Assembly: GCA_024639935.1 (NCBI GenBank)
Contig: JAHEFZ010000001.1
Span: 62,001-126,000, forward strand
Source: Microbacteriaceae bacterium
GTDB taxonomy: Bacteria; Actinomycetota; Actinomycetes; Actinomycetales; Microbacteriaceae
DNA length: 64,000 bases
Direction of reading: 5' to 3'
Of the stretch, positions 15,720-63,130 are shown one piece after another (the first letter of the stretch is position 1; each line of letters starts with the position of its first letter). The notes under the pieces are model-generated. The model did no database searches, was not told the origin of the DNA, and saw only the letters and a program-made list of their open reading frames with translations. The position numbers were made by a program, and so were the translations under genes.

Positions 15720-15771
15720 ATTTTCGTTGAACGAGGTTGGATGGTTCGACTTCACTGAGGGGAGGTGTGCC

Positions 15772-16239
15772 GTGGAAGAAATTAAACTTGTCATCTGGGA
15801 CCTCGATGACACGTTTTGGGTCGGCACCATCTCTGAAGGTCCCATCCGTCAGGTCAAACGTCATCACGAAATTGTCGTCGCTCTCGCTCAACGCGGAATC
15901 ATCAGTTCGATTTGCTCGATTAATGAACCCTCGGTGGCCTTCGCAGAACTTCGCACATCGTCGATAGTTGACTATTTTGTGCTCCCGAGTATCGATTGGA
16001 GCCCCAAGGGCCCGCGAATTCGACAGCTGATCGCGGATCTGGGTTTGCGTCCCATCAACGTCCTTTTTATTGATGACCTCGTTACAAACCTTGACGAAGC
16101 TCGATTTACTTCTCCTGGGTTAAATGTCGCGCTTCCAGAAATTCTTGAGTCCCTTCTTGACGAGCCTTCGGTTGACGGGGTGCCTGACCCAGAACTAAAA
16201 ATATTGAAACAGTACAAGGGTCTTGAAAATAAGGTTTAG
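15772..16239 (+). CDS. HAD-IIIC family phosphatase (FkbH-like stand-alone domain)
   Basis: GTG at 15772 preceded by GGAGG; VIWDLDDTFWVGTISEGP, CSINEPSVAFAEL, NVLFIDDLVTNLDEA. Confidence 0.7.
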   Translation: MEEIKLVIWDLDDTFWVGTISEGPIRQVKRHHEIVVALAQRGIISSICSINEPSVAFAELRTSSIVDYFVLPSIDWSPKGPRIRQLIADLGLRPINVLFIDDLVTNLDEARFTSPGLNVALPEILESLLDEPSVDGVPDPELKILKQYKGLENKV

Positions 16240-16296
16240 GAACGCCCCAGAATTTTTCGAGCCAATCCCTTACCCCCTCGACGGCACGCTGGACAT

Positions 16297-17220
16297 TTAT
16301 TGGGCGAGCTGCCATTCAATTTGCTTGCGAATTCCTTCACTGAAGCTGGTGGTAGGGGCAAATCCAAAGGTTTTATGAGCCTTTTCCGTCACGCCTGAGG
16401 TGGTTCGTTGATCTCCTTTACGGGCTTCCATGTTCTTAATACGAGCGGGTTTTCCGATTTCTTGTTCAATGGAGGCAATAGCGTCATTCAGCGTTACCGA
16501 ATCGCCTCCCGCAATATTAAAGACTTCGTTTGTTGCGCCGGTCTCCGCAATTGTTGCCACGATTCCCACGCAGTCGTCAATATACGTGTTAGTTCGCGAC
16601 TGAAGTCCGTCACCGTAAACGATAAATTCCTTCCCCGCACTGATTGCCTCGATGAGTTTGTGATACGCCATGTCAGGCCGCTGTCCCGGTCCAAAAACCG
16701 AGAAAAGTCGAAGAATGGTGTGGGGTAATCCTTGCGTACGGTGATAGGCGCGGATGAGTTCCTCTGCGGCCAGCTTGGTCACACCGTAAGGCGAGGTCGG
16801 CAGGCATTCGCTTTTCTCGTCACCGATTGCCGTGATGCCGTAAACGGACGACGTTGAAAACTGGACAAAATGGGTCTTTTCACCGACGCGATGTGTGATG
16901 AGGTTCTCCACCAGCTTGATATTGCAGGTCATGTAAGTGTCAAACTCCGACCAGCTCGTCATGAGGCCGGGCATTGCCGCCGCATTGACAACCACGTCAA
17001 ATTGGTCAGGAAGAACATCAAGCTCACCCCGCAAATCAACCACTATTTTGTCGATGTTGGGGACGCTACTCAACCGTTCCCAATTGACAAATTTTGGCTC
17101 GTTCGGATACAGCCGGTCCAAAAACATGTCTGCCGCAACAACATGATGCCCGCGATTGGCTAGCTCACGTGCGACGCCGGATCCGATGAACCCGGCAGCC
17201 CCCGTTACCAATATTTTCAA
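16297..17220 (-). CDS. NAD-dependent sugar epimerase/dehydratase (extended SDR)
   Basis: 307 aa; TGAAGFIGSGVA, SSVYG, YGVTKLAAEELIRAY, FSVFGPGQRPDMA. Confidence 0.85.
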   Translation of the reverse strand: MKILVTGAAGFIGSGVARELANRGHHVVAADMFLDRLYPNEPKFVNWERLSSVPNIDKIVVDLRGELDVLPDQFDVVVNAAAMPGLMTSWSEFDTYMTCNIKLVENLITHRVGEKTHFVQFSTSSVYGITAIGDEKSECLPTSPYGVTKLAAEELIRAYHRTQGLPHTILRLFSVFGPGQRPDMAYHKLIEAISAGKEFIVYGDGLQSRTNTYIDDCVGIVATIAETGATNEVFNIAGGDSVTLNDAIASIEQEIGKPARIKNMEARKGDQRTTSGVTEKAHKTFGFAPTTSFSEGIRKQIEWQLAQ

Positions 17221-17362
17221 TCGTCAGACCTTCCTGAGTAGCTTCTTTCCCATTATCGAGGGTGCGCACCTAATTAGACGCCTATTAAGGAAACTGACAG
17301 CCACAGTTCCGTCCGAAGGTCATTTTCCCGTCGCAAGGACGGAAATTGAGCGGCATACAGTG

Positions 17363-17435
17363 CGCGCCTGGAGGGATTCGAACCCCCAACCGTCTGATCC
17401 GTAGTCAGATACTCTATCCGTTGAGCTACAGGCGC
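17363..17435 (-). tRNA. tRNA-Arg(ACG)
   Basis: Reverse complement GCGCCTGTAGCTCAACGGATAGAGTATCTGACTACGGATCAGACGGTTGGGGGTTCGAATCCCTCCAGGCGC folds as a cloverleaf; anticodon loop CTACGGA. Confidence 0.95.
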
Positions 17436-17540
17436 ACATTGTCTCTCGACAACTTGACGAGTCTATCAGAGTGGATTATCGCGCCAAAACCGAGGTCTCG
17501 CTGGGGGCTAGGGTTGGAAATCTTCTAGAATAGAGAGATT

Positions 17541-18587
17541 GTGACGACAAACTCTGGAGCACCCCGACTGAGGGCCGTTGTCTACATCGGGCCAGTCAAA
17601 ACGGGCTCCACCGCATTCACGTTACAAATGTGCGCGTCACAAGAGCGTGGTGAACTGGGGAAATCCGTTGTTTATGCCATGCCGCGAACTATTCGCGTAC
17701 ACAACGAGTCGCATGTGGTAATCCCTGAACACATCAGGCATCTCGCGCCAAAATTATCCTGGAACCGACAAACAGGGGAGGACCAGGTTGTCAAAGGTAA
17801 GTTGCAAAAGGTTTTCCGCGATCAAGTGCGTGCTTATCTGGATGACCTGACGAACGAACTTCGTTCTCGTGCGACGTCAGACACAACCGTGTTTTTTGTC
17901 GAAGAAACATTGTCGCGACGACCTAACCCCGGAGACCTGACTTCGGAACTTCTGACTCGCTTTGATTCCGTTGACTATGTCTTTGTTGCTCGCGCACAGC
18001 AATACATTGTTTCGTCCGCCATCGGACAGAGACTAAAAGGGGGCGCCCATCCCAGTTCGTGGGATGCTCGAGTCTCGACTTTTCTATCCAATGAGAACCT
18101 TGCACACCAATTCGATTACGCAAGCATCATTGATCGATGGGGATCGAGCGAACCGCGAGTGAGGTCAATTGTGGTGCCGTTCCTTGAATCAGATCGCGGC
18201 ACTCAAAAATTGTTCGAGCGAATCCTGAAATCAGTAGACGTTAGTGCAAATCTCGGCAAACCGCTCAAACGAAGCGGTAACTTTATGGCCTCGCGTTTTG
18301 AAATTTCTGCCATCGGGTTTTACAAGAAGGTAGCTTTTCGATTCTCGCAAAAACGTATACAACGCGGCCTTCGACGTTTCAGCCTCTTCGGCGTCTTCAG
18401 ACTCGCGATCGCGCTGGTCGCTCGGTTAATCAGAAGCCCTCGCTGGGAAATCCTTCCAGACGAGCGAATCGTCATCATCGATCACTATCGCGAATCCAAT
18501 TTGCGCTTCCGAAAGAAGTTGGGCGACTTGGCTGAGTCCGTCGAATGGACTGAATGGTTTCAACGCGGCAACCTCATCAACCGTTGA
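17541..18587 (+). CDS. Sulfotransferase-like P-loop protein, paralog 1
   Basis: 348 aa; VVYIGPVKTGSTAF (PAPS 5'-phosphosulfate loop-like), VDYVFVARAQQYIVSSAIGQRLK (3'-phosphate R...S motif-like), C-terminal HYRESNLRFRKKLGDL...WTEWF shared with four other ORFs in the window. Confidence 0.65.
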   Translation: MTTNSGAPRLRAVVYIGPVKTGSTAFTLQMCASQERGELGKSVVYAMPRTIRVHNESHVVIPEHIRHLAPKLSWNRQTGEDQVVKGKLQKVFRDQVRAYLDDLTNELRSRATSDTTVFFVEETLSRRPNPGDLTSELLTRFDSVDYVFVARAQQYIVSSAIGQRLKGGAHPSSWDARVSTFLSNENLAHQFDYASIIDRWGSSEPRVRSIVVPFLESDRGTQKLFERILKSVDVSANLGKPLKRSGNFMASRFEISAIGFYKKVAFRFSQKRIQRGLRRFSLFGVFRLAIALVARLIRSPRWEILPDERIVIIDHYRESNLRFRKKLGDLAESVEWTEWFQRGNLINR

Positions 18588-18630
18588 GGCAACTTTCAAT
18601 TCTCGAACGGTTTCGTGTGCGCCTGTGAGG

Positions 18631-20028
18631 TCAGGAAATTTTGTTCCAAATCGCCAGCAGCCTGTTGAGCATTCGCGCAAAGTTACGGTTCGATTGCGAA
18701 CCAATGGGGGCGATTCCGTGGAGTCGCTGCGTGGCCACCGTTTGAGATTCGGTGTACTTGAGAATGCCGTCGCGACCGTGGCGACGACCCATTCCTGACA
18801 TCTTCATCCCCCCCATTGGAGCTCCGTGTGAGGCCCAACTCGCCGAAAAACCTTCGTTCACGGTGATCGTTCCCGAGTGAATCTGCTGGGCAATTTCCGT
18901 GGAGCGATTCGTCCAGAGACTCGCATTAAGCCCGTATTCAGACTGATTGGCGCAACGAATCGCCTCGTCGTCGTCGGCAACCCGATACACCGAAACGACG
19001 GGGCCGAACGTTTCCCCGGCGCCGAGTTCCATGTCATCCGTTACGCCAGTAAGGATGGTCGGCTCAAAAAAGTTTGGCGCGATATCCGGCCGCCTTGACC
19101 CGCCCGCGACGACTGTCGCGCCACGTTTCACCGCATCAGCTACGTGAGCGGCCACTCGATCACACTGTGCGGCAGAAATAAGCGGACCCATATCGATGTC
19201 CCAGTCGAATCCCGCGCCCAGGTTCATCGTGCGCACGTTGTGGGCAAACGCGGCGAGAAAACGATCGTAAAGTTCCTCAACGATATAGATTCGTTCGATG
19301 CTGACGCACAACTGACCCGAATTGGAAAAACACGCGCGAACTGCGGCGCGCGCTGCCGCCTCGAAATCGGCACCTCCAAGGACCATCATCGGGTTTTTTC
19401 CACCCAACTCTCCGGAAAATCCGATTAGTCGCGTCGCACACTTTTCGGCCACTGTTCTGCCTGTTGCGGTTGAACCCGTGAACATAATGTAGTCAGCATT
19501 CGCAACGAGATCGTCACCGTGTACCCGCCCACCCCCGTGAATGACCGTGAGTACGCCCGCTGGTAGTCCAGCGTCACGCAACAACCGTTCAACAATGTCC
19601 GCGGTTGCCGGAGTCGCGGCGTCGGGAAGAAGCACAACGGAGTTACCGGCGATGAGTGCTGGAATCACGTCAGACGCGGGGAGCGTGAACGGGTAATTCC
19701 ATGGGGTGATAACACCGACAACTCCGATGGGCCTGTGGTGTTCGATTGCGCGGGTCAAAAATGGGATTGCACCCCGGCGGCGCGCTGATCGCAAATGCCC
19801 CGGACCCTTTCGCCCGTAGTAATGGGCTAGTTGCGCTGCGTCGACCGCTTCTTCGAAAGCGCTGAGTCGGTTCTTCCGTGTTTCGGTCTGAATGGAGTCC
19901 AGGATTTCGGGCTGATGCCGGTAAACAAGCCGTGCAAATCTCGTGGCGATTGCGGCACGTTTTCGAATGGGGACACGTGCCCATTCACGCTGAGCCTCGC
20001 GAGATCGAGCAACGACATCCTGATTCAC
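18631..20028 (-). CDS. Succinate-semialdehyde dehydrogenase-like aldehyde dehydrogenase
   Basis: 465 aa; GVVGVITPWNYPFTLPASDVIPAL, FTGSTATGRTVAEKC, GELGGKNPM, NSGQLCVS catalytic Cys. Confidence 0.85.
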   Translation of the reverse strand: MNQDVVARSREAQREWARVPIRKRAAIATRFARLVYRHQPEILDSIQTETRKNRLSAFEEAVDAAQLAHYYGRKGPGHLRSARRRGAIPFLTRAIEHHRPIGVVGVITPWNYPFTLPASDVIPALIAGNSVVLLPDAATPATADIVERLLRDAGLPAGVLTVIHGGGRVHGDDLVANADYIMFTGSTATGRTVAEKCATRLIGFSGELGGKNPMMVLGGADFEAAARAAVRACFSNSGQLCVSIERIYIVEELYDRFLAAFAHNVRTMNLGAGFDWDIDMGPLISAAQCDRVAAHVADAVKRGATVVAGGSRRPDIAPNFFEPTILTGVTDDMELGAGETFGPVVSVYRVADDDEAIRCANQSEYGLNASLWTNRSTEIAQQIHSGTITVNEGFSASWASHGAPMGGMKMSGMGRRHGRDGILKYTESQTVATQRLHGIAPIGSQSNRNFARMLNRLLAIWNKIS

Positions 20029-20031
20029 TCC

Positions 20032-21039
<1,008 letters not shown>

Positions 21040-21168
21040 CTAATTGACGGGGCCCTTACCCGAATCAAATCGTCACCACTGTTTGCCTCAACGCAGTCGC
21101 TCGCCACGTTTCCCTGACCAACCTTCTCTCAACCCTTGACAAGTTGGGGAGACGGTAGGCTGGAGCGT

Positions 21169-22089
21169 ATGAATTCGAAGAGCTCGCGCGACGAAGACGC
21201 CGTACTTGACGCCCTCGAAGCCGAGGCGATTTGGATGATTCGCGAGGCCGCCAGCGCGTTCCAGAAGCCTGTCATCTTGTACTCCATTGGCAAGGATTCG
21301 ACCGTTTTATTGCGTCTGGCCGTCAAAGCATTTGCACCGGCGCCAGTCCCTTTCCCCGTGTTGCACATTGACACGACCTGGAAGTTCAAAGAGATGATCA
21401 AGTTCCGCGACGACACTGCGCGAGCGAACAACCTGGATCTCGTTGTGCACACCAACCCAGATGGTCGTGATGACAAGATCACACCATTCACCCACGGATC
21501 GGACGAATATACCCGTTTGATGAAGACTGTTGCACTTCGTGCGGCACTCGATAATGGTGGATACGATGTTGCCCTCGGTGGTGCCCGTCGTGACGAAGAG
21601 CGTTCGCGGGCCAAGGAACGGATGTTCAGCCTTCGCGAGCCAGGACATGCGTGGGACCCTTCGAGCCAACGCCCCGAGTTTTGGCACACCGTTAACTCGA
21701 CGCTTAAGCCGGGCCAGACGATGCGCGCATTCCCCATTTCAAACTGGACTGAACTCGACGTGTGGAAGTACATCCGACGCGAAAAACTTGACGTCGTTCC
21801 CCTTTATTTTTCGAAAGAACGACCCACCATCGAGCGCAATGGACAACTCATCATGATCGATGACGACCGATATCCTCTCGAACCAGGCGAAGAAATCGTG
21901 AATCGCCGAATTCGTTTCCGCACTCTCGGTTGTTACCCACTCACTGCCGCGGATACGGGCGAGGCCGCGTCGGTGGACGAAATCATTGCAGAATTGACAC
22001 TCTCGACCACCTCAGAACGATCGGGACGTCTTATCGATGGAAAAGGCGCGTCCTCGATGGAGCGCAAAAAGCACGAGGGGTATTTCTAA
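21169..22089 (+). CDS. cysD: Sulfate adenylyltransferase subunit 2
   Basis: YSIGKDSTVLLRLA, FPVLHIDTTWKFKEMI, GGARRDEERSRAKER, FPISNWTELDVWKYI, LGCYPLT. Confidence 0.95.
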   Translation: MNSKSSRDEDAVLDALEAEAIWMIREAASAFQKPVILYSIGKDSTVLLRLAVKAFAPAPVPFPVLHIDTTWKFKEMIKFRDDTARANNLDLVVHTNPDGRDDKITPFTHGSDEYTRLMKTVALRAALDNGGYDVALGGARRDEERSRAKERMFSLREPGHAWDPSSQRPEFWHTVNSTLKPGQTMRAFPISNWTELDVWKYIRREKLDVVPLYFSKERPTIERNGQLIMIDDDRYPLEPGEEIVNRRIRFRTLGCYPLTAADTGEAASVDEIIAELTLSTTSERSGRLIDGKGASSMERKKHEGYF

Positions 22090-23906
22090 TGTCGAGTGCG
22101 CTTCTTCGCATCGTTGTCTGCGGCGCAGTCGACGACGGTAAATCAACAGTTCTCGGTCGGCTTTTGGTCGAAACGAACTCAATCCCGCTGGACGAAATTG
22201 ATGATTCACGACTCATGGCAAACGGTGAGGTCGATTACAGCCAGCTCACCGATGGACTCGAATCGGAACGTGAACAGGGCATCACCATTGACGTCGCTCA
22301 CCGTCACGTGTATTTGCCGTCTGGCCGTCGTGCGATTCTTGCCGACTCGCCCGGCCACGAGCAGTACACGCGCAACATGGCTGTTGCTGCGAGTGAAGCA
22401 GACCTTGGATTGCTCCTCGTTGATGCGGTCAAAGGTGTTCGTGACCAATCAGTCCGTCACGCTGCGATCAACTCGCTCATGGGAGTGAAACACGTTGTTG
22501 TCGCTGTCAACAAGATGGATGCCGTCGGCTACGACCAGTCAATTTTTGACGGAATTGTAGACGAACTTAGCCGTCGCTTCGAGCCGTTCGGATTCGAGGA
22601 CATCACCTACATCCCTGTGTCAGGAATGGTGGGTGACAACGTCACGGTTCCATCAGCGAACATGCCCTGGGGCGCTTCGGTAACAATCCTGTCGCTGCTG
22701 GACCAGGAGCGAGAGCTTGACCGCTCGGGTGGGGACGGAAGCCTTCGTCTTCCCGTTCAGTTTGTGTCGAAGGCCGGCGACGTCCGCTGGTACGCCGGCA
22801 CCATCGCGCGTGGTTCCGTCACCGTCGGTGACACTGTTCGGGTCTGGCCAGCGATGACCGAAGCGGTCATCGCTGGTATCTATTCACCCAACGAAACAAA
22901 GGTCGCGGGAGAAGCTGAAGCCGTTCATGTCACCCTGGATAGAGAGGTGGACATCGCCCGCGGAGACGTGATCGTTGGTGCTGCCGGCGAAATCCCCTCG
23001 TCGCGTGCCCACCTCGCGGACCTCGTCTGGATCGATACCAAGCCACTCGACACCCACGCGTCGTACATCCTGCGCAGTGGTCCGATCGAGATCCCTGCTC
23101 GAGTCGAGACTGTCCGCTACGTGCGAAACATCACAACTGGCGAACAAGCTCGTGGTCACGCCCTTGAGGTGAACGATATCGGACGTGTCGAAATCGTCAC
23201 CGACCGACCTATTTTGCTTGACCCCTACGCAGAATCGATTCATACGGGTGGATTCATCCTTGTCGATCGACTTACCGCGATGACGGTTGCGGCGGGAATG
23301 TCGAAACATCCACTCGTGCGCGAGTCTGACGTTGTCAAACACGATTTCGCAGTTGGCCGCGCCGAGCGCGAAAAACTCAACGGCCTGCGCTCGTGTGTTC
23401 TCTGGCTGACCGGCCTTCCCGGTTCAGGAAAAAGCACCGTCGCCGATGAGCTCGAAAAATCACTCATTACTCTTGGTCTTCGATCGTTCACTCTCGACGG
23501 CGATACCGTTCGGTCGACACTATCCGAGGACCTCGCATTCTCGCCCGAAGACCGCAAAGAAAATGTGCGCCGCGTTGCCCGCGTTGCGGAACTCATGATG
23601 GAAGCGGGAATCGTCGTCATTGTGTCGCTCGTTTCACCATTCCGTGAGGACCGCGAAATGGCGAAAGAGCGTTTTGCGGACGGCGACTTCATTGAGGTAT
23701 TCGTTGATACCCCGCTCGAAATTTGTATGCAACGCGATCCCAAAGGCCTCTACGCCCGCAGCCAAGCCGACACCTCAATGCAGATGACGGGAGTTGGCCA
23801 AGGCTACGAAGTGCCGCTCGCGGCGGATGTGACGCTCGACGGGACACAGCCTGTGGAGGATTCCGTTCAGACGCTGCTGGGGCTCGTCCTCAGCCGTCGA
23901 ATCTGA
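22089..23906 (+). CDS. cysNC: Bifunctional sulfate adenylyltransferase subunit 1 / adenylylsulfate kinase (CysN-CysC fusion)
   Basis: ATG overlaps the cysD TAA (TAATG). GTPase VVCGAVDDGKSTVLGRLLVE, DSPGHEQYTRNM, NKMD; C-terminal APS kinase GLPGSGKSTVADELE, LDGDTVRSTLSEDLAFSPEDRKENVRRVA, FVDTPLEICMQRDPKGLY. Confidence 0.95.
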   Translation: MSSALLRIVVCGAVDDGKSTVLGRLLVETNSIPLDEIDDSRLMANGEVDYSQLTDGLESEREQGITIDVAHRHVYLPSGRRAILADSPGHEQYTRNMAVAASEADLGLLLVDAVKGVRDQSVRHAAINSLMGVKHVVVAVNKMDAVGYDQSIFDGIVDELSRRFEPFGFEDITYIPVSGMVGDNVTVPSANMPWGASVTILSLLDQERELDRSGGDGSLRLPVQFVSKAGDVRWYAGTIARGSVTVGDTVRVWPAMTEAVIAGIYSPNETKVAGEAEAVHVTLDREVDIARGDVIVGAAGEIPSSRAHLADLVWIDTKPLDTHASYILRSGPIEIPARVETVRYVRNITTGEQARGHALEVNDIGRVEIVTDRPILLDPYAESIHTGGFILVDRLTAMTVAAGMSKHPLVRESDVVKHDFAVGRAEREKLNGLRSCVLWLTGLPGSGKSTVADELEKSLITLGLRSFTLDGDTVRSTLSEDLAFSPEDRKENVRRVARVAELMMEAGIVVIVSLVSPFREDREMAKERFADGDFIEVFVDTPLEICMQRDPKGLYARSQADTSMQMTGVGQGYEVPLAADVTLDGTQPVEDSVQTLLGLVLSRRI

Positions 23907-23911
23907 TTGAC

Positions 23912-24823
23912 ATGCACGAGTTCTATTTTCTCTGTCGTACCTTCCGATGGGAATTGGCGTATCGAATTGTTTCGGCCTTTCTAACAACCTTCCTTGGGCT
24001 TTTGGTGTTCGGGATGGTTCTCGCGGACAATCTGCCTGACTGGATTAAGTCGTTCTCGTGGCTTCAAGTATTTGCCACGGCAATGCGCGAGCTCCCGCCG
24101 TGGGATTTCATTCTCATCGCTTTTGCTGTAACGCTGATCGGTGGATACCTTCTCCGAATTACGACCTATTTGTTCCGTAAGCGCAACACGTCACGCCTTG
24201 GCAAAATCACGATAAAGGAACACGGCGAAGGCCTCGATGGCCTCGCGCTCCAACAGCGACGGCGACACATGTTTGGCAGAAGCAGGCTTCTGAGCATGGT
24301 CTTTGAACTCGGAAGTGCCGTCAGTGCCGTATTCGGTGTCGTCGGTGCGTTGATTGTTTTCGGCTATTACCCGTCGGCGATTGTACTCGTCGTTTTGGTC
24401 TCCGTCGCCGTCTTCTACCTGCCCGTCGCTGTTAAAAGGTGGCTTGCCGGGCTTGAGAAAAATGAAAAGGACCACGAGGAGTTGCGTAACCAGCTCAAAG
24501 AAGCGGGCTCCGACAGTGATTCCGCCGAAATCCACGTTCACGCCGAACGTATTCGGATTCGGGCGAAGAATCCAATCCTTCGCTTTACGGTGATTTGGCC
24601 TTTACTGGCCATTATTGTCCCGTGCACAATCGGCGCCGCAGCAATGGAATCATGGTTTTTTGCTGTGAGCATCAATGACTCAGCGCTCAACAAGTTGCTC
24701 ATCGTCCTGATGGCGATGTCACTCCGAACGATGTTGACTGCGATGACCGTTGTCGAAAGGGTGTCCAACCGAATCGCGCGCATCAGTATGCCCGATCCGA
24801 CCGAGGATGATGAAGACTCCTAA
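23912..24823 (+). CDS. Multi-pass membrane protein of unknown function
   Basis: ATG 6 nt after the cysNC stop; 303 aa with about 5-6 hydrophobic segments and a charged central loop (LAGLEKNEKDHEELRNQLKEAGSDSDSAEIHVHAERIRIRAKNP). No family recognised. Confidence 0.65.
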   Translation: MHEFYFLCRTFRWELAYRIVSAFLTTFLGLLVFGMVLADNLPDWIKSFSWLQVFATAMRELPPWDFILIAFAVTLIGGYLLRITTYLFRKRNTSRLGKITIKEHGEGLDGLALQQRRRHMFGRSRLLSMVFELGSAVSAVFGVVGALIVFGYYPSAIVLVVLVSVAVFYLPVAVKRWLAGLEKNEKDHEELRNQLKEAGSDSDSAEIHVHAERIRIRAKNPILRFTVIWPLLAIIVPCTIGAAAMESWFFAVSINDSALNKLLIVLMAMSLRTMLTAMTVVERVSNRIARISMPDPTEDDEDS

Positions 24824-24827
24824 GTTG

Positions 24828-26021
24828 CTAGAGCCATTGGACAGTCCGATACGCGTCACGAATCTGATCCATATCCACGGTGTATCGCCGCTGGGCAAAC
24901 TCCCGAGTTGGCATGACGTGACGATAATGAAGTCCGCGTAGGTCCGCAATTCGTCGTTGCCAATGGTTGTTTTCGGGCTTCATCCGCGCCGAAATATAGA
25001 TCAATTTAGTCCCCGTTCGTGAAAACAGCGTGTTGTGAGGTGCGCTTCCACCTTCCGCGATGATGTAGTCAGCATCGCGAAACATCGCCACCTGCTCGAG
25101 GAACGTAAATCTCTCTGGATACACAATCTCGAATCCTTCGGCGGCAAAAAACTCTTCAAGTTCCTCCCGGTTTTGACAACCATCTCGATACTGGGCCACA
25201 TCTCTGCTTGACCTCGAAACGTAAAGTTTTTGGCCCACCGGACTACGAGTTTCTGACGCAAGAGAAAGAAAGTCCGATGACATCGCGTCAAATCGTTCGG
25301 TCCCAAGGGGAAAAAGCTCAACGTTTCCTCGAGGTGCAGCGTGCGAAATCACCAAGCCATGCTTGACATGCACGTATCCTCCGTCCGGCCCGCTCTGAGG
25401 AAAGAAAATGACGTCCTCAGGAGTCAAACCCACCATCGCAAGAAGACCACTCGGGTTCCACCCGGGGTGGCGTGTCAGTATTCGTTTTGTCGCATCGATC
25501 TGTATCGCACGGTGAATTCGGGGCAGAACGTGCAGAAGCCAATGCCCAAAGGCGTCAGAGCCGTTCTGAATAATCCACACCGATTCGTCGACCGACATCA
25601 CAACCCCCTCAGCCGTGTGGCCCCGCGGGGGATGAATATTGACGAACGGGAATTGCAGCCATTGACCGTTCTCAAGACGCGCTTCACCGTGCGAGCCCAG
25701 TGTCACATCGGTGAGCGCAACGACCCACTCACCAATAACTTCGGACTGGTAAATGTTGCGGGGGGTGGCTTCCCAGAAACCATCCCGATACGTTTCGTCC
25801 GACGCCGCAAAGCGCAATGTAGAACGTGGCTTGAATCCCGACGGTTTCGACTCCAGATTTACTCCCGGAGGTGCCGTGCGGTTTCGCCGAAAAACGCGGT
25901 AAAGGTTAATGAGATTCGGTGATCGGCCTAGAAAATTGGAATAACCCTGTTTCAGAAGCCCCACGTAGTGCTTCGCTCGGGCAGATAGCCGCCGTAAAAG
26001 CGCAACTTTTTTCCTCGTCAC
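24828..26021 (-). CDS. Glycosyltransferase family 61-like protein (DUF563)
   Basis: 397 aa; WIIQNGSDAFGHWLLHVLPRI, KLYVSRSSRDVAQYRDGCQNREELEEFFAAEGFEIVYPE, ADYIIAEGGSAPHNTLFSRTGTKLIYIS. Confidence 0.75.
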   Translation of the reverse strand: MTRKKVALLRRLSARAKHYVGLLKQGYSNFLGRSPNLINLYRVFRRNRTAPPGVNLESKPSGFKPRSTLRFAASDETYRDGFWEATPRNIYQSEVIGEWVVALTDVTLGSHGEARLENGQWLQFPFVNIHPPRGHTAEGVVMSVDESVWIIQNGSDAFGHWLLHVLPRIHRAIQIDATKRILTRHPGWNPSGLLAMVGLTPEDVIFFPQSGPDGGYVHVKHGLVISHAAPRGNVELFPLGTERFDAMSSDFLSLASETRSPVGQKLYVSRSSRDVAQYRDGCQNREELEEFFAAEGFEIVYPERFTFLEQVAMFRDADYIIAEGGSAPHNTLFSRTGTKLIYISARMKPENNHWQRRIADLRGLHYRHVMPTREFAQRRYTVDMDQIRDAYRTVQWL

Positions 26022-27337
26022 CGCGGTTTCGCCATGACCCTCGTACCAAATTCGCGCCAGTTCTTGGGGAACTCCCTGGACAGTTTCACTGGCGAAAGGG
26101 GGGGAAGTTGGTTCGCGCGACGAATGGCATCAGCCCAGCCCTTCACATCGAACGGATCGATGATTGTCACCGCATCCTTGTCAAACTTGGTCGCGAGTTC
26201 CGTTAAAGCGGTTGAATCCGCGGCGATGACTCGCTTCCCCCGCGACAGCGCTTCAACGACCGGCAGACCAAAGCCCTCCGCGAGTGAGGGAACGACGACA
26301 ACGTCCACGGCCTCATAAATTGCAAGGAGTTCGGCATCCGAAACGATACCCTGAATGCTGATACGCGTTCGTTGCTCTGGCGTGAATTCGTCCAGCGCGC
26401 TCCGCAAATCATCATCGGTGATAACGGAATATCCCGCGAGAATTCCCAGCCGCGCGTCCTCTCCGTTGTTGAGAAGCTCGCGTACGGCCGACACAACCAC
26501 CTGGAAGTTCTTGCGCTTGTCGAGTTGACCGATGGCGAGAACGCGTATCGTCGCGTCCTGAAAAATTCTTCCGGCGACTGAATCGTCCTTTGCACCGATT
26601 GCACTGAAATGCGGGCAAGGAAGATAGACGACCGACTGACTCTGTCCATGATTCGTTCCCGTTTCCATCAGATCGAGAAAACGGCGATATTGACTCAGAG
26701 TGAATTCGGAATTCGTGACGACGTCCGTCGCATCACTGACGGCGTCGAGATATTCCAGATGAAGTCCGCGCACGCCGCCGAGGTGTTCTCGTTCAAATAG
26801 ATGCCTATGTGACAACGGAAAAAGGTCGTGCACATAGACGATGCTGCGCATTTTCTTTGAGGCGAAAATATCTTGCATTGCCCACGTGTGCGAAATCTTG
26901 ACGGGAATATCCATCATGAGATAGGTCTGATTTGGATTTGGCTCCCAGGTTGGCTGAGATTTGAGGGAATAAGTTTGCTCAACCAATTGTGGCCGTAGGT
27001 TTCGCGCGACGAACCTGTTCAACCACTTGTAGATAAGTCGCGCGAAAGGAATTTCACGCAAAAATTTACGGGTGGATGTACGGCGACCCAAGTGGACGAC
27101 TCCGACGGTAGCCTTGACCGCCGCCTCTCGAGCTTGAGCGATAAATATCGATTCGTCACGAACGACGATGCTTCCCAGCTCTGGGACGCTACGCCACACG
27201 TTTGCACCATCGTCGTAACGGATAAACTCGATGTTCTCGATGTTTGCGGCGACAAACTGGCGAATCACGCGCTGCACACCGGTGGTGAAATTCATTTCCG
27301 CTATTGCAGTGATGTCAAGAGCAATCGGCTTGGTCAC
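26018..27337 (-). CDS. Glycosyltransferase family 4 protein
   Basis: ITAIAEMNFTTGVQRVIRQFV, VYVHDLFPLSH, VLAIGQLDKRKNFQVVVSAV, VVVPSLAEGFGLPVVEALSRGKRVIAAD. Likely GTG start at 27337 overlapping the upstream stop. Confidence 0.9.
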   Translation of the reverse strand: MTKPIALDITAIAEMNFTTGVQRVIRQFVAANIENIEFIRYDDGANVWRSVPELGSIVVRDESIFIAQAREAAVKATVGVVHLGRRTSTRKFLREIPFARLIYKWLNRFVARNLRPQLVEQTYSLKSQPTWEPNPNQTYLMMDIPVKISHTWAMQDIFASKKMRSIVYVHDLFPLSHRHLFEREHLGGVRGLHLEYLDAVSDATDVVTNSEFTLSQYRRFLDLMETGTNHGQSQSVVYLPCPHFSAIGAKDDSVAGRIFQDATIRVLAIGQLDKRKNFQVVVSAVRELLNNGEDARLGILAGYSVITDDDLRSALDEFTPEQRTRISIQGIVSDAELLAIYEAVDVVVVPSLAEGFGLPVVEALSRGKRVIAADSTALTELATKFDKDAVTIIDPFDVKGWADAIRRANQLPPLSPVKLSREFPKNWREFGTRVMAKPR

Positions 27338-28365
27338 AGAGAGTTCTCCTCTACTTGTCGAATCCACTCATCCCAGCTCGAATCGTGCGAGGACTGCATG
27401 GACCGCAACGTTTGGTTGGATTTCGCAAATCGACGCATCACCCATTGGCGATCCGCTGCCGTCAGTGTCCACGGTTCGAATGGAGTTCCGTCTTCGTTAG
27501 GCAGACTGCCTATCGCTTGATTGTGATAGTTGAAGGACCGTGACTTCCACGCCGTCGTCAATCGCGGTCGAAGCGGTGGCCAAAGCCACGCAATGCGGGT
27601 GACGGATTTTATCCACGCCAACTTTTTCATTCCCTCGATTGAATAGGTGGGGTGGATGCGCAATCCCTCGATTCCCTCTACTCGAGGTGCAATTCCCAAT
27701 TGTGCAAACTCAAAGATTCGGTCGATCGTCCCGAATGACCCGTGATCGTCTTCGTCGTACGGCACAACGATGACATGATCGGCGCCGACACCGTCTACCC
27801 AACGTCGGTACTGCGCGGAATAGTCGAGGGCGGCAAAATCTCGAAGCCTCGGGATCTTGAACATCTCCCAACGTGGGTTGAGTGTGGCCCACCAACTTTC
27901 CCACATTTTCATGTGTTGGGAAACTATCGAACTCACAAGCTTGTCCTGTCGACGAGCGATGAACAGATAGTCCACAACATCGAAATGGCGCCTCATAACG
28001 GAGTCAAGGTGGCGGGGATCAAAGCGAGGGAGGCCCGTTTCTACCACAAAAATAGCGGTAGCGGATTTTAGCGTGGTTGCTCGAAGCGCTTCGGATACTT
28101 TTGCTAGTGCGAGGTCCACGTCACTGCCGGGAACTGATGCGTCCGCCTTGTTTCCCTCTGGTCGGTGCGCTTTGCCCATGAGACCTTCCATCTCGTATCG
28201 CTGCCGAACGATATTGCCGTCTGCCCCAAACCACAAATCTCCTGTGGGGTAAATGATGGATTTCGGCGTGATACCAAATTTATTGGTCAGCGTGAAATAG
28301 CGAGAAAGCGCGGTGGTTCCCGTCTTGATGGGACCGAGATGAACTAGGGCGCGAGTAACCGTCAT
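27334..28365 (-). CDS. Sulfotransferase-like P-loop protein, paralog 2
   Basis: ALVHLGPIKTGTTALSRYF, VDYLFIARRQDKLVSSIVSQHMKMWESWW, C-terminal AKSNQTLRSMQ...WDEWI. Start ATGA overlaps the paralog 3 stop. Confidence 0.65.
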   Translation of the reverse strand: MTVTRALVHLGPIKTGTTALSRYFTLTNKFGITPKSIIYPTGDLWFGADGNIVRQRYEMEGLMGKAHRPEGNKADASVPGSDVDLALAKVSEALRATTLKSATAIFVVETGLPRFDPRHLDSVMRRHFDVVDYLFIARRQDKLVSSIVSQHMKMWESWWATLNPRWEMFKIPRLRDFAALDYSAQYRRWVDGVGADHVIVVPYDEDDHGSFGTIDRIFEFAQLGIAPRVEGIEGLRIHPTYSIEGMKKLAWIKSVTRIAWLWPPLRPRLTTAWKSRSFNYHNQAIGSLPNEDGTPFEPWTLTAADRQWVMRRFAKSNQTLRSMQSSHDSSWDEWIRQVEENSL

Positions 28366-29375
28366 GCCGCGGGGCCTAGCGTCAAGGCGAACCAATTTGC
28401 CCATCGAGCGGTGTCTGCTTCCGCGCCCAATTTCTCTTGAAATTGTTCATTGGATTGGCGGTACTCCTCCACAACAAAGGAGCGTTCTAATGATGTGAGT
28501 GTCCACGAATCGTGGGTTTCCGACGAGTTACGCTTCAACTCATCATGTGCCTTGCGCACCACAAATACAAAAAGCAATCGGAAAACTTCTCGAGCGCCGG
28601 GGATCACCGAGAAGCGGTGTGCCCAGCGTTTGATAGAGGCCAATTCGTTCATACGTTCGTGAGAAAAAGTTGAATGAATTCGTTCGCCGTTTGCGAGTTT
28701 CGGGCTGTGCGGAAACTCACCGAACCCGACAGTGTTGAAAATGTCTTGTGAGAGATCGGATGTGCCGACTCCGGATCGATAGGGGACAAAGTGCACGGCG
28801 TAATCCTTGGAACCCGTGTTCCACTTGTCCCACAACCGCGCATAGTCATAGGACCCTCGAACAGCGTGTTTGCGCATGAAAGCCCCGGAATCGAGAGCGG
28901 TAACCGAGGTGCGGTCCCACATTCGAATTTGCTGTGCGAGAAGGGAACGAATCGCACTCGGCTGGTCCCGCGCGACAATCACAAAATCCACGGTATCGAA
29001 ATATCCACGTAGGATCTTTCCCAGTTTCGGAGTGGCGCGTTGGTCGCCAATCTCACACACCATCACCACCTGAATATCTCCGCCTCGGGACTTTGCCTCT
29101 GCCGCTATGGCGGATAATTTTTCGCGGATGAGAGCGGGAGTTGCGCTTGTGTTCCGTCGACGTTCACCGGACGCATTAAGTGGCGCAAGCGCGAGTTCAA
29201 CGAGATCGTGATGTTTAACAATTTCTCCCCGAGAAGGAAACCACAAATCGTTCGTTGGATAGATCAGGTTTGTCGGAAGTGTGCCGTGTGATGCGAGAAG
29301 TGAAAATTGGTACGCAAAAGAACTTGTCCCGGTTTTCATCGGCCCCAGGTGGACAAGGAGTCGTACTTTTGCCAT
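28362..29375 (-). CDS. Sulfotransferase-like P-loop protein, paralog 3
   Basis: LLVHLGPMKTGTSSFAYQF, VDFVIVARDQPSAIRSLLAQQIRMW, C-terminal EYRQSNEQFQEKLG...WANWF. Confidence 0.65.
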   Translation of the reverse strand: MAKVRLLVHLGPMKTGTSSFAYQFSLLASHGTLPTNLIYPTNDLWFPSRGEIVKHHDLVELALAPLNASGERRRNTSATPALIREKLSAIAAEAKSRGGDIQVVMVCEIGDQRATPKLGKILRGYFDTVDFVIVARDQPSAIRSLLAQQIRMWDRTSVTALDSGAFMRKHAVRGSYDYARLWDKWNTGSKDYAVHFVPYRSGVGTSDLSQDIFNTVGFGEFPHSPKLANGERIHSTFSHERMNELASIKRWAHRFSVIPGAREVFRLLFVFVVRKAHDELKRNSSETHDSWTLTSLERSFVVEEYRQSNEQFQEKLGAEADTARWANWFALTLGPAA

Positions 29376-30392
29376 CTAGAGTCCCGTCGCCTTAAACCAC
29401 GAACGCCATTCGGATTGACTCGATTGCGCCCCCAAGGCCTTTCGCAGGTCGTCTCCTAGATTTGCGTAAAGACCTAAAATTCGAACACGTTCTTCACTTG
29501 GGATCACCCAGTCGCCCGAAATTGACGAGCGAGTTTTGAATCCCGCACGCATAACTTTGGAGCGATCCGCATTCAAGATTCGGAGAAAAAGCGTGTGAAG
29601 AATAGATACAACAAATGGGACGCGTTCAAATTTAGTCCTTGCCTTCTTGAGAGAGGCCAGACGCTTGAGCGATGCAAGTGGAAGGCTTGGGTGAATGCGA
29701 CGTGAACCGAAATCACCCCCCAATCGGATGGCGGGTTTTCCGGTGACAATATTCATGAATCGATCAATGACTGCATACCCGTCCGATTCATCTTCAAAAT
29801 AAGGGATTATGACAAATTCGTCGATAGGCAGTTCGTGAAGTTGTGTCAACATGCGCCGATAATCGTATGCGACAGACCCATTGGCGCGCTTGAGCATCCC
29901 ATACAAATCGAGATCAGCGCGATCCGATCGCCACTCCTTGATCTTGTGGACAAGTAACGATTGCGTAGCCTCTATCGGAGAACGCACTGCAATCACAAAA
30001 ACCACTTCATCAAACGACTTCTTCAACAGATCGACCAAGCGGCCGAGGTTCGCACGACCCACCAGCGTCTCACTGATAAACACCGTGGTCTTTCGCGAAC
30101 CGCGTCCTTTCGCTGCATGCGCGGCGAGTTCCTTGACTTTTTGAGCAACGTCATCCGGAAGTTGAATCGCCGTTTTACGGCCGGCCTCGCGTCGACCCTC
30201 TGGATACAAATAATCGGCGAGTTGACCGTGCTTTGTGATGCTTCCCGATGCAGGAAACCACAGATCGCCCGTCGGGTATATAACCTCGGACGGAAGCAAC
30301 CCCGCCTTGTGCGCTGCCGAAAAGTACGCGCCAATTGCTGTCGTCCCGGTTTTCATTGGACCAACGTGAACAACGACTCGGGTGGTGACCAT
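29376..30392 (-). CDS. Sulfotransferase-like P-loop protein, paralog 4
   Basis: VVVHVGPMKTGTTAIGAYF, VVFVIAVRSPIEATQSLLVHKIKEW, C-terminal LYANLGDDLRKALG...WRSWF. Confidence 0.65.
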   Translation of the reverse strand: MVTTRVVVHVGPMKTGTTAIGAYFSAAHKAGLLPSEVIYPTGDLWFPASGSITKHGQLADYLYPEGRREAGRKTAIQLPDDVAQKVKELAAHAAKGRGSRKTTVFISETLVGRANLGRLVDLLKKSFDEVVFVIAVRSPIEATQSLLVHKIKEWRSDRADLDLYGMLKRANGSVAYDYRRMLTQLHELPIDEFVIIPYFEDESDGYAVIDRFMNIVTGKPAIRLGGDFGSRRIHPSLPLASLKRLASLKKARTKFERVPFVVSILHTLFLRILNADRSKVMRAGFKTRSSISGDWVIPSEERVRILGLYANLGDDLRKALGAQSSQSEWRSWFKATGL

Positions 30393-30438
30393 GGCGAATC
30401 TCCTTTGTTCCCAAGCTCCGAATTAAACCGTTACTGAG

Positions 30439-30527
30439 CGGAGACGGTGGGATTTGAACCCACGGCTCCCTAAAGGGAACTCCACCTTAGCAGGGTGGTG
30501 CACTAGGCCGAACTATGCGACGTCTCC
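30439..30527 (-). tRNA. tRNA-Ser(GCU)
   Basis: Reverse complement GGAGACGTCGCATAGTTCGGCCTAGTGCACCACCCTGCTAAGGTGGAGTTCCCTTTAGGGAGCCGTGGGTTCAAATCCCACCGTCTCC; long variable arm; anticodon GCT. Confidence 0.95.
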
Positions 30528-30548
30528 CGTACCAGTCCATGTTACCCA

Positions 30549-31460
30549 TTATTTTCTGGGCGGTGCTTCCAGTTCCGAGAACCAACGTTTCCAGATTTCG
30601 CGACGAGATTCCGACCCCAAGAGCTTCTTGAATTGTGCATTCGATTCCCGATATCGCTCGATAATTTCGCGTCGCTCCACGGTTTTCAAGGACCAGCGTG
30701 TGCCCTGAATTTCGTTTTGGATTTTTGTGCGTGCGGAGTAGTACAGCCATGCCGCAAACTTTTCGAGAACAGGAATTGACCGAAGTCTGGCCAACTTCCG
30801 CTTGATCTCGCCCAGACGCACGAGCTGCTCTTTACCGAGTGATGCATTTCCACGGTCGGCCTTGACGGACTCGGGCACCCGAATTCCCGTGTGGCGTGTA
30901 AATCGCTTCATGAGTTCGTCCGTCAAACGGTCGCCCTCAAAATAAGGGAGGGCCGTCAGAGAGTGTCCGTCACCGGACCACCGATTTAAGTAGACATCAT
31001 AATAAAACCGCTTTCGTGTTGCCCTAAGGATTGCCGCGTACTCTGGTCGAATGTAACTCGGCGATGTCCACGATTGGACCCGGTGCGCGACGAATGAGAG
31101 CAGTGCCGCGCTCTGAGCACGTGCAAAAAAGACAATTTCCAGGGTGTCCGCCAATTGCGACAGCTTCGTGATGATGTAGTCAGGGAACCGAGCAACGTTC
31201 AGCGCCTCGGCGATGAGCAATATCGTGACATCCGGCACATTACGTCGACGAGCTTCGCCCACAATTGACTCGAGGCGACGTTCAATGGGTGCGCCGCGAC
31301 GCGTTCCCAGCAGTTCAAGTTCAGGGTGCTTGGCGACGTCTATCCGGCTTTGGGGCCACTCGGTTCCGGACGGCAGAATGAGCGAGTCCGGAAGCGGCTC
31401 GGACAAAAGGCGGGACGACAATGCTTCGGTTCCCGTTTTCATGGGACCGATATGCAACAC
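30549..31460 (-). CDS. Sulfotransferase-like P-loop protein, paralog 5
   Basis: MLHIGPMKTGTEALSSRLL, LEIVFFARAQSAALLSFVAHRVQSW, C-terminal RYRESNAQFKKLLG...WKRWF. Start codon uncertain. Confidence 0.6.
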   Translation of the reverse strand: MLHIGPMKTGTEALSSRLLSEPLPDSLILPSGTEWPQSRIDVAKHPELELLGTRRGAPIERRLESIVGEARRRNVPDVTILLIAEALNVARFPDYIITKLSQLADTLEIVFFARAQSAALLSFVAHRVQSWTSPSYIRPEYAAILRATRKRFYYDVYLNRWSGDGHSLTALPYFEGDRLTDELMKRFTRHTGIRVPESVKADRGNASLGKEQLVRLGEIKRKLARLRSIPVLEKFAAWLYYSARTKIQNEIQGTRWSLKTVERREIIERYRESNAQFKKLLGSESRREIWKRWFSELEAPPRK

Positions 31461-31482: not shown

Positions 31483-32703
31483 CTAATAGTTGTAGGAGAC
31501 GGAGCAAGTGTTTTGCGCAGCGGACTGCCCCTTGACTCCCGTCAAAATCGGTCCAGATCCCGTTTGTTCCGCGTTGGGGTCTATTTCGGAATCGCCAGGT
31601 TGTGCCTCAATTTCCGACCCGACGCCGGTGGCGTCCTTGTCGAGTTGGAACGGTTGGTCATTCACAATGGCGGTGAACAATGCATCCGCAAGTTCGGGTA
31701 ACGGTGCGACCTTGCCCGCATAAACCCCACCCAACCCCGTAGTGCTGGGGTATTGCACAAACACAATGTTCTCACGGGGGATCTCTTTCAAAACCATCGC
31801 CATGGCAACCATGGTGTCAAGGCTCGAAAGAGAATTCGACAATGTCATCGAGTTTGCGGCGACCGAGGCAAGTCCGTAAATCTTGGCCGGATCGAGCAGG
31901 ACCCCCTCATCTTGAACTTTCCGAACAAGCGACGAGAGATAGACCTGTTGAGAAGAGATGCGGCCGAGGTCGGATCCGTCGCCCACACCGTGACGGGAGC
32001 GCAAGAACGCGAGAGCTTCCCAACCAGAGATATTGTAGGTACCTTTTTCCGGGAATTTGAGTCCGGTATACGGATCATCCACGGCGGCGTTGACACACAC
32101 GTCGACGCCGCCGATCGCGGTGGCAAGAGACGCGACTCCGCTAAACGTGATCAGTCCGGCGTAATCAATCGTGAGTCCCGTTAACGCCTCCGCCGTGAGC
32201 ACAGCACACGCGAGCCCACCGTAGGACAGCGCGACGTTGATGGGTTGCGCCGCCATCGCCGATGACATGCTGGTTCCGTCTTCGCTTGGGCAAGACGGAA
32301 TCGGAATCACCATGTCTCGAGGCACCGACACCGCAACGGCGCGCGAGTGGTCCTCGGACACGTGGACCACAATGTTGACGTCGTTGAGGGTTCCGCCGGC
32401 CGCGTCGCCGCCAAATCGCCCAGGCTGATTCGCGCGCGTATCCGACCCGACGATGAGAACGTTGAAAGCCCCCTCAATCGCGCCAACACCCGAGAGCTTG
32501 ATTTCTTCGCCGGCCAAAAATACGGAGTCAAATGACGAGGTAATTTTCCACGCGAGAATTCCCGCAATTGATGCTGACGAAACGAGGGCGATGGCGAGAG
32601 ATAGTCCGACAACACGCATAAACGTCCCCCACGGCCGGCGAACAGATAGTGCCGCGTGGCGTGGAGATTCGTGCGTATGTGTGATCGGTGTTGCCTTGGT
32701 CAC
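31483..32703 (-). CDS. LytR-CpsA-Psr (LCP) family protein
   Basis: N-terminal TM; NVLIVGSDTRANQPGRFGGDAAGGTLNDVNIVVHVSEDHSRAVAVSVPRDMVIPIPSC, FLRSRHGVGDGSDLGRISSQQVYL. Start moved inside the ORF because the longer ORF overlaps tRNA-Ser. Confidence 0.9.
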   Translation of the reverse strand: MTKATPITHTHESPRHAALSVRRPWGTFMRVVGLSLAIALVSSASIAGILAWKITSSFDSVFLAGEEIKLSGVGAIEGAFNVLIVGSDTRANQPGRFGGDAAGGTLNDVNIVVHVSEDHSRAVAVSVPRDMVIPIPSCPSEDGTSMSSAMAAQPINVALSYGGLACAVLTAEALTGLTIDYAGLITFSGVASLATAIGGVDVCVNAAVDDPYTGLKFPEKGTYNISGWEALAFLRSRHGVGDGSDLGRISSQQVYLSSLVRKVQDEGVLLDPAKIYGLASVAANSMTLSNSLSSLDTMVAMAMVLKEIPRENIVFVQYPSTTGLGGVYAGKVAPLPELADALFTAIVNDQPFQLDKDATGVGSEIEAQPGDSEIDPNAEQTGSGPILTGVKGQSAAQNTCSVSYNY

Positions 32704-32724
32704 TGTTCTCCTGGGTGGTTGTGG

Positions 32725-32809
32725 CGGAGGGCGTGGGATTCGAACCCACGAGACATTTCTGCCCACTGGTTTTCAAGACCAGCTCCATCGGCCTCTCGGA
32801 CAGCCCTCC
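32725..32809 (-). tRNA. tRNA-Ser(UGA)
   Basis: Reverse complement GGAGGGCTGTCCGAGAGGCCGATGGAGCTGGTCTTGAAAACCAGTGGGCAGAAATGTCTCGTGGGTTCGAATCCCACGCCCTCC; anticodon TGA, long variable arm. Confidence 0.95.
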
Positions 32810-61755: not shown

Positions 61756-63130
61756 CCTCGAAAATTCAACAATCACCGAACAGTTGATGCTGCGCCTTAA
61801 GGTGCCCACAAAGTTACGGAACCTCGAGGCGACATTGATTATCTTTGCGATGGTCGTGACGTCGGCCGCGCTCGCGCTCGTTGACCTCGGCGCTACGGGA
61901 AAACTCAATCCACCGATTATCGGGTTGACGCTGGGACTGGGCGCAATTGTGCTCGCCATGCACATCGCGCAGAGATTCGTCGCTCGCGATGCCGATCCGC
62001 TCATCCTTCCCATCGTGACCCTCCTCAATGGGCTCGGAATAGCGATGATTCACCGGCTTGATATTTCTGGTGGGTTGACCGGATGGCAAGCCAACGCGAC
62101 TCGTCAGATGGTGTGGACCGCGATCGCCATTGTTGTCGCAATCGTTGTCATCATCGTCGTGCGAAACCATCGTGTGCTCCAGCGCTATCGCTACGTCTGG
62201 ATGCTCGTCGGTGTCGGCCTTCTGATGCTCCCGCTTGTCCCTTTCATTGGCACGACCATAAACGGCGCCCGATTATGGGTCAACCTTGGTTTCGTCACGT
62301 TCCAGCCGGGCGAAATCGGCAAAATCGCTCTAGCACTCTTCTTTGCGGGTTACCTCGTCACAGCGCGCGACTCACTGTCGGTCGTCGGAAGAAGAATGTT
62401 CGGGGTGACCTGGCCGCGAATCAAAGACCTCGGTCCAATTTTTGTTGTGTGGGGAATCGCGATGCTCGTCTTAATCTTCCAGCGCGATTTGGGAACATCA
62501 CTGTTGTATTTCGGTCTCTTCCTCGTCCTCATGTACGTCGCGACCGGTCGTGCCATTTGGTTTGTCGTAGGCGGGGGCCTGTTTGGCACCGGGGCACTGG
62601 TCGCGAGCCAATTTCTCGGGTACGTTCAGGGTCGCTTCGCAGCCTGGCTCGATTCGTTCAACCAAGAAAACTACGACGCTGTCGGTGGTTCGTACCAACT
62701 CGTGCAGGGCCTGTTCGGTTTTGCCTCGGGCGGAATTGTGGGAACGGGACTTGGTGCAGGCCATCCCGGAATCGTCCCGCTCGCCGAATCGGACTACATC
62801 ATGGCGAGCCTTGGTGAAGAACTCGGCCTTATCGGGGTATTCGCAATTCTGACGCTTTTCATGCTTTTCGTCGCGCGAGGAATTCGGATCGGAATTAACG
62901 GTTCGGATGATTTCGGCCGACTGCTTGCGATTGGGCTGACCTTTGTCATCGCCCTTCAAGTGTTTATCGTGGTCGGCGGAGTTACCCGAGTGATACCGGT
63001 CACGGGATTGACAACTCCGTTTCTCGCTGCAGGAGGGTCGTCGCTCGTGGCGAACTGGATTATTGTCGCGCTGCTTTTGCGACTCAGCGACACGGTTCGC
63101 CACCAGCGCGAAGAGGCGGTGGGGACATGA
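61736..63130 (+). CDS. rodA: FtsW/RodA/SpoVE family peptidoglycan glycosyltransferase
   Basis: About 12 TM; NGARLWVNLGFVTFQPGEIGKIALALF, QRDLGTSLLYFGLF, QLVQGLFGFASGGIVGTGLGAGHPGIVPLAESDYIMASLGEELGLIG. Confidence 0.94.
   Translation: MSLSPNSLENSTITEQLMLRLKVPTKLRNLEATLIIFAMVVTSAALALVDLGATGKLNPPIIGLTLGLGAIVLAMHIAQRFVARDADPLILPIVTLLNGLGIAMIHRLDISGGLTGWQANATRQMVWTAIAIVVAIVVIIVVRNHRVLQRYRYVWMLVGVGLLMLPLVPFIGTTINGARLWVNLGFVTFQPGEIGKIALALFFAGYLVTARDSLSVVGRRMFGVTWPRIKDLGPIFVVWGIAMLVLIFQRDLGTSLLYFGLFLVLMYVATGRAIWFVVGGGLFGTGALVASQFLGYVQGRFAAWLDSFNQENYDAVGGSYQLVQGLFGFASGGIVGTGLGAGHPGIVPLAESDYIMASLGEELGLIGVFAILTLFMLFVARGIRIGINGSDDFGRLLAIGLTFVIALQVFIVVGGVTRVIPVTGLTTPFLAAGGSSLVANWIIVALLLRLSDTVRHQREEAVGT

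Follow-up and report, generated by a model that had tools for sequence, protein, structure and literature searches.

A conserved locus of five putative sulfotransferases with its own PAPS supply, probably for sulfation of a surface glycan, in a small-genome Microbacteriaceae bacterium

What does a bacterium with a small genome do with five diverged copies of one gene, and how did it come by them? We address this question for a 64,000-nucleotide stretch of DNA (hereafter the window; positions 62,001 to 126,000 of contig JAHEFZ010000001.1) from a Microbacteriaceae bacterium (assembly GCA_024639935.1), in which a first-pass annotation had described five sulfotransferase-like genes, S1 to S5, and had proposed tandem duplication and diversification of specificity. 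The host genome (1.31 Mb in 23 contigs, 96% complete) is that of a small-genome actinobacterium from a largely freshwater lineage, and its nearest relatives are Microbacteriaceae metagenome-assembled genomes (MAGs). The locus is, in our judgment, probably a dedicated sulfation module acting on a glycan of the surface or cell wall, with five enzymes dependent on 3'-phosphoadenosine 5'-phosphosulfate (PAPS) and a PAPS supply of its own.

All five open reading frames (ORFs) are present in the order and on the strands first described (Table 1), and every pair among them is homologous: the alignments span about 290-330 residues at 20-29% identity (BLASTP, E 5.8e-11 to 2.7e-42); no sixth copy was found elsewhere in the host genome. 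The N-terminal blocks quoted in the first-pass annotation occur in the copies, and the IYPT(G/N)DLWF segment is indeed common to S2, S3 and S4 only. These three are contiguous, as had been noticed: S4 and S3 adjoin with zero spacing (TAG directly followed by ATG, as read from the DNA), and S3 and S2 overlap by ATGA, with an ATG at 28365 over the S3 stop, so that S2 probably starts there rather than at the longest-ORF position, 28404. GTGA overlaps join S2 to a GT4 glycosyltransferase gene and the latter to a GT61 gene, and AAAGGAG, which resembles a ribosome-binding site, lies upstream of S4. Because its junctions have zero spacing or four-base overlaps, the set S4-S3-S2-GT4-GT61 is probably one translationally coupled operon. 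S5 does lie just past a tRNA-Ser(GCU) gene, which separates it from S4; S1, first placed about 10 kb away, is in fact about 8.7 kb from S2.

The sequence alone left the sulfotransferase label uncertain. Among the five copies the sole Pfam hit is that of S4 to PF13469 (Sulfotransfer_3), and it falls below threshold (E=0.0012, 19.6 bits, against a cut-off of 27). The other four copies do not match this model, the host genome has no PF13469 hit at E<=0.001, and NCBIfam models find nothing on the five. Within the wider family, 5 of 43 members match PF13469 at E<=0.01. A profile comparison with a true PF13469 protein from a genome of the same genus aligned over 38 columns only and was uninformative; PF13469 is the best sub-threshold match, and a common fold and common PAPS motifs are to be expected. 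True PF13469 sulfotransferases also occur in the same-genus genome G131, on the contig that carries its array, at distances from the array of about 13 kb and 30 kb, and the nearer gene (L060:1495-2379) adjoins ORFs that, from a reading of their sequence only, we call aminotransferase-like and GT61-like.

Motifs and predicted fold agree with the label. We used two family alignments, one of 43 homologues and one of 46 rows whose residue numbers are shifted by three; motif positions are given in S4 numbering unless stated otherwise. In the first alignment E108, R137, S145 and P197 are invariant, and a GPxKTG loop, K249 and three tryptophans are near-invariant. In the second, R137 and S145 are invariant in 46 of 46 sequences, as are G11, P12, K14 and G16 of the loop and two tryptophans wherever covered. 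In the AlphaFold model of S4 (predicted local distance difference test, pLDDT, 88.6) the loop, GPxKTG(T/S), occupies residues 11-17 between a strand (3-9) and a helix (17-29); that is, it sits between strand 1 and helix 1, as the 5'-phosphosulfate-binding loop does in PAPS-dependent sulfotransferases. R137 closes the strand leading into the S145 helix, with the Ser thus placed eight residues after the strand-end Arg; R-x7-S is the usual 3'-phosphate motif of the sulfotransferase superfamily. The invariant E108 is modelled just after the second strand, where it would fit the glutamate base known in several carbohydrate sulfotransferases. The model as a whole has a sulfotransferase-like fold, with Foldseek matches to 3rnl (from Alicyclobacillus; E 6.2e-4, probability 1.00) and 4gbm (from the curacin pathway; probability 1.00) at modest TM-scores of 0.39-0.54 and only 14-16% identity. 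The family very probably consists of PAPS-dependent sulfotransferases; S1 to S5 belong to one uncatalogued family of these, missed by current annotation, and we infer that they are catalytically active.

A source of PAPS lies between S1 and the array operon, in the form of cysD and cysNC; the first-pass annotation had overlooked both these PAPS-synthesis genes and the missing sulfate reduction. CysD is the sole PF01507 (PAPS_reduct) protein of the host genome, in which we found no second such protein, as a PAPS reductase would be, and no sulfite reductase (PF01077, NIR_SIR). We surveyed 250 Microbacteriaceae genomes, plus a phylum sample. The family is present in 8 of the 250 (in the phylum sample, apart from the window's own genome, there were only three matches, all of them weak and partial), and in all eight CysD is the only PF01507 protein and NIR_SIR is absent. 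If we count as real any kinase of adenosine 5'-phosphosulfate (APS) with E below 1e-50, such a kinase is found in 23 of the 250 genomes, and these include 8 of the 8 that bear the family (hypergeometric p 1.5e-9, uncorrected for kinship, five genera). Besides the window's genome, five others (G131, G185, G112, G190 and G146) have the APS kinase about 2-7 kb from a family copy on the same contig, and two same-genus genomes without the family are also without CysD. Since genes for PAPS synthesis are present and neither PAPS reductase nor sulfite reductase was detected, PAPS most likely serves only sulfation, as far as gene content can indicate. Its use in cysteine synthesis we reject as far as detectable, no reductase genes having been detected in the host or in the other family-bearing genomes. 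The host also encodes two inositol-monophosphatase-family proteins, which could include a phosphatase for 3'-phosphoadenosine 5'-phosphate (PAP).

We propose that PAPS would be made in the cytoplasm from ATP and sulfate by CysD and CysNC, and that S1 to S5 would pass its sulfuryl group to hydroxyl groups of a glycan of the surface or cell wall, or of that glycan's lipid-linked precursor. The invariant Glu would serve as base, with the GPxKTG loop and the Arg/Ser pair holding PAPS. Assembly of the glycan would involve the GT4 and GT61 enzymes, whose genes are translationally coupled to the array, and the LytR-CpsA-Psr (LCP) protein may attach it to the cell wall; each paralogue would most likely modify a position or sugar of its own. 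Our reasons for inferring a glycan are these two coupled glycosyltransferase genes, RmlB, and the LCP gene beside S5, and we regard a surface or cell-wall glycan as the likely acceptor; one acceptor site per paralogue is somewhat favoured.

Several observations weigh against this interpretation. The family is not recognised above cut-off by Pfam or NCBIfam models and is without any characterised member; a sequence profile search of the PDB returned only weak partial SULT matches (E=0.22 and worse, none significant); and a P-loop protein comes first by E-value in Foldseek. With the genome about 96% complete, a reductase could in principle sit in a gap, which is disfavoured because reductases are absent in eight genomes. 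Neither a flippase nor a polymerase, nor any polymer structure, was recognised among the scanned neighbours of the locus, no systematic search for them having been made, and the acceptor could therefore be other than a polymeric glycan. Neighbours in other genera, scanned with Pfam for glycan genes, for the most part matched no family, because many of the ORFs taken, defined from stop to stop, are probably not genes.

The alternative that survives best is that these are true sulfotransferases whose acceptors are lipids, such as a sulfolipid, or small molecules, such as a secreted metabolite. Actinobacterial sulfotransferases acting on lipids are established in mycobacteria, and such acceptors would suit both the want of recognised polymer-export genes and the conservation, after cysNC, of a truncated ABC-exporter-like membrane protein. 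This protein (23912-24823), for which Pfam and NCBIfam give no match, is predicted from a medium-confidence model to be an ABC-exporter-type transmembrane domain without the nucleotide-binding domain, and might assist in export or in the handling of PAP or sulfate. However, the array shows translational coupling to two glycosyltransferase genes, an S2-like gene followed by GT4 is a recurrent pair in other genera, and an LCP gene flanks S5, all of which makes this alternative unlikely.

The copies might instead be redundant, or kept for dosage, with one acceptor in common. Single copies can indeed be lost: S5 is missing in one relative's locus (L033), and S2 is missing between S3 and GT4 in two (L036 and L039). 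However, the copies form five separate clades, and the commonest residue per 20-residue block is carried by 71-87% of members within clades as against 33-64% family-wide; no more than 32 positions are fixed in each of the five clades, and 13 of these carry the same letter in all. The dN/dS between orthologues (simple Nei-Gojobori estimates, with synonymous sites near saturation in some pairs) is 0.08-0.22 for S1 to S5, compared with 0.017-0.054 for CysD, CysNC and SerS. All five copies are under purifying selection, evolving several times faster than the PAPS-synthesis genes, and have been maintained over long divergence; dN/dS gives no sign of positive selection at the level of the gene. We regard redundancy as quite unlikely, and it is plausible that acceptor specificity has diversified among the copies. 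A variable acceptor cleft next to a conserved PAPS pocket would be consistent with the data. Decay of the copies was considered and rejected, dN/dS being low and the catalytic and PAPS residues intact (G, P, K, G, E, R and S are invariant where covered).

As for their origin, S2 to S4 could have been made by local tandem duplication within the lineage, as the first-pass annotation would have it; they are adjacent, in one orientation, and have the IYPT(G/N)DLWF segment in common. In a maximum-likelihood tree of 46 proteins, whose deep branches are weakly supported and some of whose rows are long, each window copy nevertheless falls in its own orthologue group with several MAGs, and S2 clusters with copies adjoining the same GT4 gene in other genera. 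The approximately unbiased (AU) test rejects a clade of S2+S3+S4 (p-AU 0.0006), which largely refutes the proposal for S2, and an exclusive clade of all five (p-AU 0.0018); it does not reject S3+S4 (p-AU 0.18) or S3+S4+S5 (p-AU 0.12), which leaves tandem duplication some room there. Gene order, pieced together from overlapping loci (L030-L033, L036-L040, L042-L045 and L047), is conserved as SerS, HAD, tRNA-Ser(UGA), LCP, S5, tRNA-Ser(GCU), S4, S3, S2, GT4, GT61, and continues with the convergent membrane-protein gene, CysNC and CysD, then RmlB, aldehyde dehydrogenase, S1 and tRNA-Arg. In G190 (genus g74) an S3-like gene, an S2-like gene and GT4 follow one another in the same order as in the window. 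The duplications appear to predate the sampled genera, with single copies later lost or gained, and a local, recent origin is very unlikely. Nor were the copies found to fall with distant unrelated families, which would have spoken for independent acquisition. What stands of the first-pass view is that there are five diverged, homologous copies, with the predicted PAPS-binding residues intact and most other positions differing.

That S1 to S5 are instead P-loop kinases or GTPases is highly improbable: Foldseek does list SRP54, PFKFB and GPN-loop GTPases, its first hit by E-value among them, but the loop is GPxKTG(T/S) and not Walker A GxxxxGK(T/S), and R-x7-S has the spacing of the 3'-phosphate motif of sulfotransferases. 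Moreover, of the listed hits the sulfotransferases 3rnl and 4gbm alone attain probability 1.00, and every family-bearing genome has an APS kinase.

Table 1. Features of the sulfotransferase locus, in window coordinates
Feature	Coordinates	Strand	Basis and remarks
S1, sulfotransferase-family copy outside array	17541..18587	+	Full-length profile match; orthologue clade in 6 loci, beside aldehyde dehydrogenase/RmlB or tRNA-Arg
Aldehyde dehydrogenase, succinic-semialdehyde-type	18631..20028	-	NCBIfam NF006916 above cut-off; adjoins S1 in L032, L042, L044, L045
RmlB, dTDP-glucose 4,6-dehydratase	20032..21030	-	TIGR01181 above cut-off
CysD, sulfate adenylyltransferase small subunit	21136..22089	+	TIGR02039 above cut-off
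CysNC, ATP sulfurylase large subunit fused to APS kinase, start approximate	22056..23906	+	TIGR02034 and TIGR00455 above cut-off; PF01583 E=3.9e-56
Membrane protein after cysNC	23912..24823	+	Conserved position; AlphaFold2 pLDDT 72; listed Foldseek hits all ABC exporters
GT61 glycosyltransferase, last gene of array operon	24828..26021	-	PF04577 E=1e-18; GTGA overlap with GT4
GT4 glycosyltransferase	26018..27337	-	PF00534/PF13692; GTGA overlap with S2
S2, sulfotransferase-family copy	27334..28365	-	Longest ORF to 28404; E122, R151, S159 in longest-ORF numbering
S3, sulfotransferase-family copy	28362..29375	-	BLASTP homology, orthologue clade
S4, sulfotransferase-family copy	29376..30392	-	AlphaFold2 pLDDT 88.6; Foldseek to 3rnl and 4gbm
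tRNA-Ser(GCU)	30438..30527	-	Between S5 and S4, position conserved in relatives
S5, sulfotransferase-family copy, short N-terminus, GTG start	30549..31460	-	BLASTP homology, conserved position
LCP protein, glycopolymer-to-cell-wall ligase family, start approximate	31483..32721	-	PF03816 E=4.1e-34; conserved upstream of S5

Some further features of the locus deserve mention. Two tRNA-Ser genes lie inside it, the one listed in Table 1 and another at 32722-32809 (-), at positions conserved across relatives. We rejected the tRNA-Ser that splits the array as a mark of recent insertion: it is in the same place in seven relatives' loci, one of them without S5. Plasmids (searched with S3) and viral contigs gave no match, and thus no sign of horizontal carriage. 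At 16240-30437, between the inositol genes and tRNA-Ser(GCU), the GC content is 53.9%, lower than the 56.9% found elsewhere in the window, a pattern like that of an island of surface-glycan genes. Because the longest ORF of the LCP gene runs into tRNA-Ser(UGA), its real start is probably downstream. A short HAD-like ORF at 15700-16239 (+), which may be a truncated remnant, matches a 359-aa ORF in L043 and a portion of a 640-aa ORF in L045, at ~75% identity. Where the window has RmlB, aldehyde dehydrogenase and S1, L036 (16097-18782, -) and partly L030 have ABC importer genes after cysD, in L036 with an NMT1-like binding protein; these perhaps take up sulfate or sulfonate.

How much of this is new? 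In the open literature on Microbacteriaceae and sulfotransferases we found only one relevant paper, on Pontimonas salivibrio, a member of the family with a streamlined genome that has sulfate activation genes but no PAPS reductase or sulfite reductase, and whose sulfotransferases are presumed to modify the cell wall (BMC Genomics 2018, PMC6106888). The general idea that PAPS is made for cell-wall sulfation and not reduced was thus already in print for this species in 2018. One genome of our sample, G030, is very probably the strain of that paper. Like the window's host, it has ATP sulfurylase and APS kinase and no reductases; unlike it, G030 has no match to the family profile even at E<=10, and its CysD and CysNC are only 53% and 39% identical to the window's, so that its module is a different version. 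Reports of sulfated polysaccharides from bacteria are rare, and in actinomycetes such polymers are unproven (PMC13390465). Sulfotransferases and glycosyltransferases do occur together, as in our locus, in the synechan xss cluster of Synechocystis (PMC8205485) and in the putative wps-1 cluster of Actinoplanes missouriensis (PMC13390465). The latter, whose product is unverified, combines Wzx/Wzy/Wzz-type genes with two sulfotransferases, each from a different recognised family (PMC13390465), whereas the window has five copies of one uncatalogued family with their own PAPS-synthesis genes. What is new is the uncatalogued sulfotransferase family, the conserved five-copy locus and the genome-level test of co-occurrence.

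The family thus adds sulfotransferases that current annotation misses. A conserved set of probable sulfation enzymes beside their own source of PAPS, for which no competing use was detected, also offers a clean genetic handle. There is an even chance, in our estimation, that this family lays down sulfate in a position-specific code on the surface glycan of Gram-positive bacteria that have small genomes, live mostly in fresh water and cannot reduce sulfate, and that would thus activate it for envelope decoration alone. With the locus in hand one could ask why an aquatic bacterium with a streamlined genome invests ATP in a sulfated surface, for which pressure from phages or grazers may be one reason.

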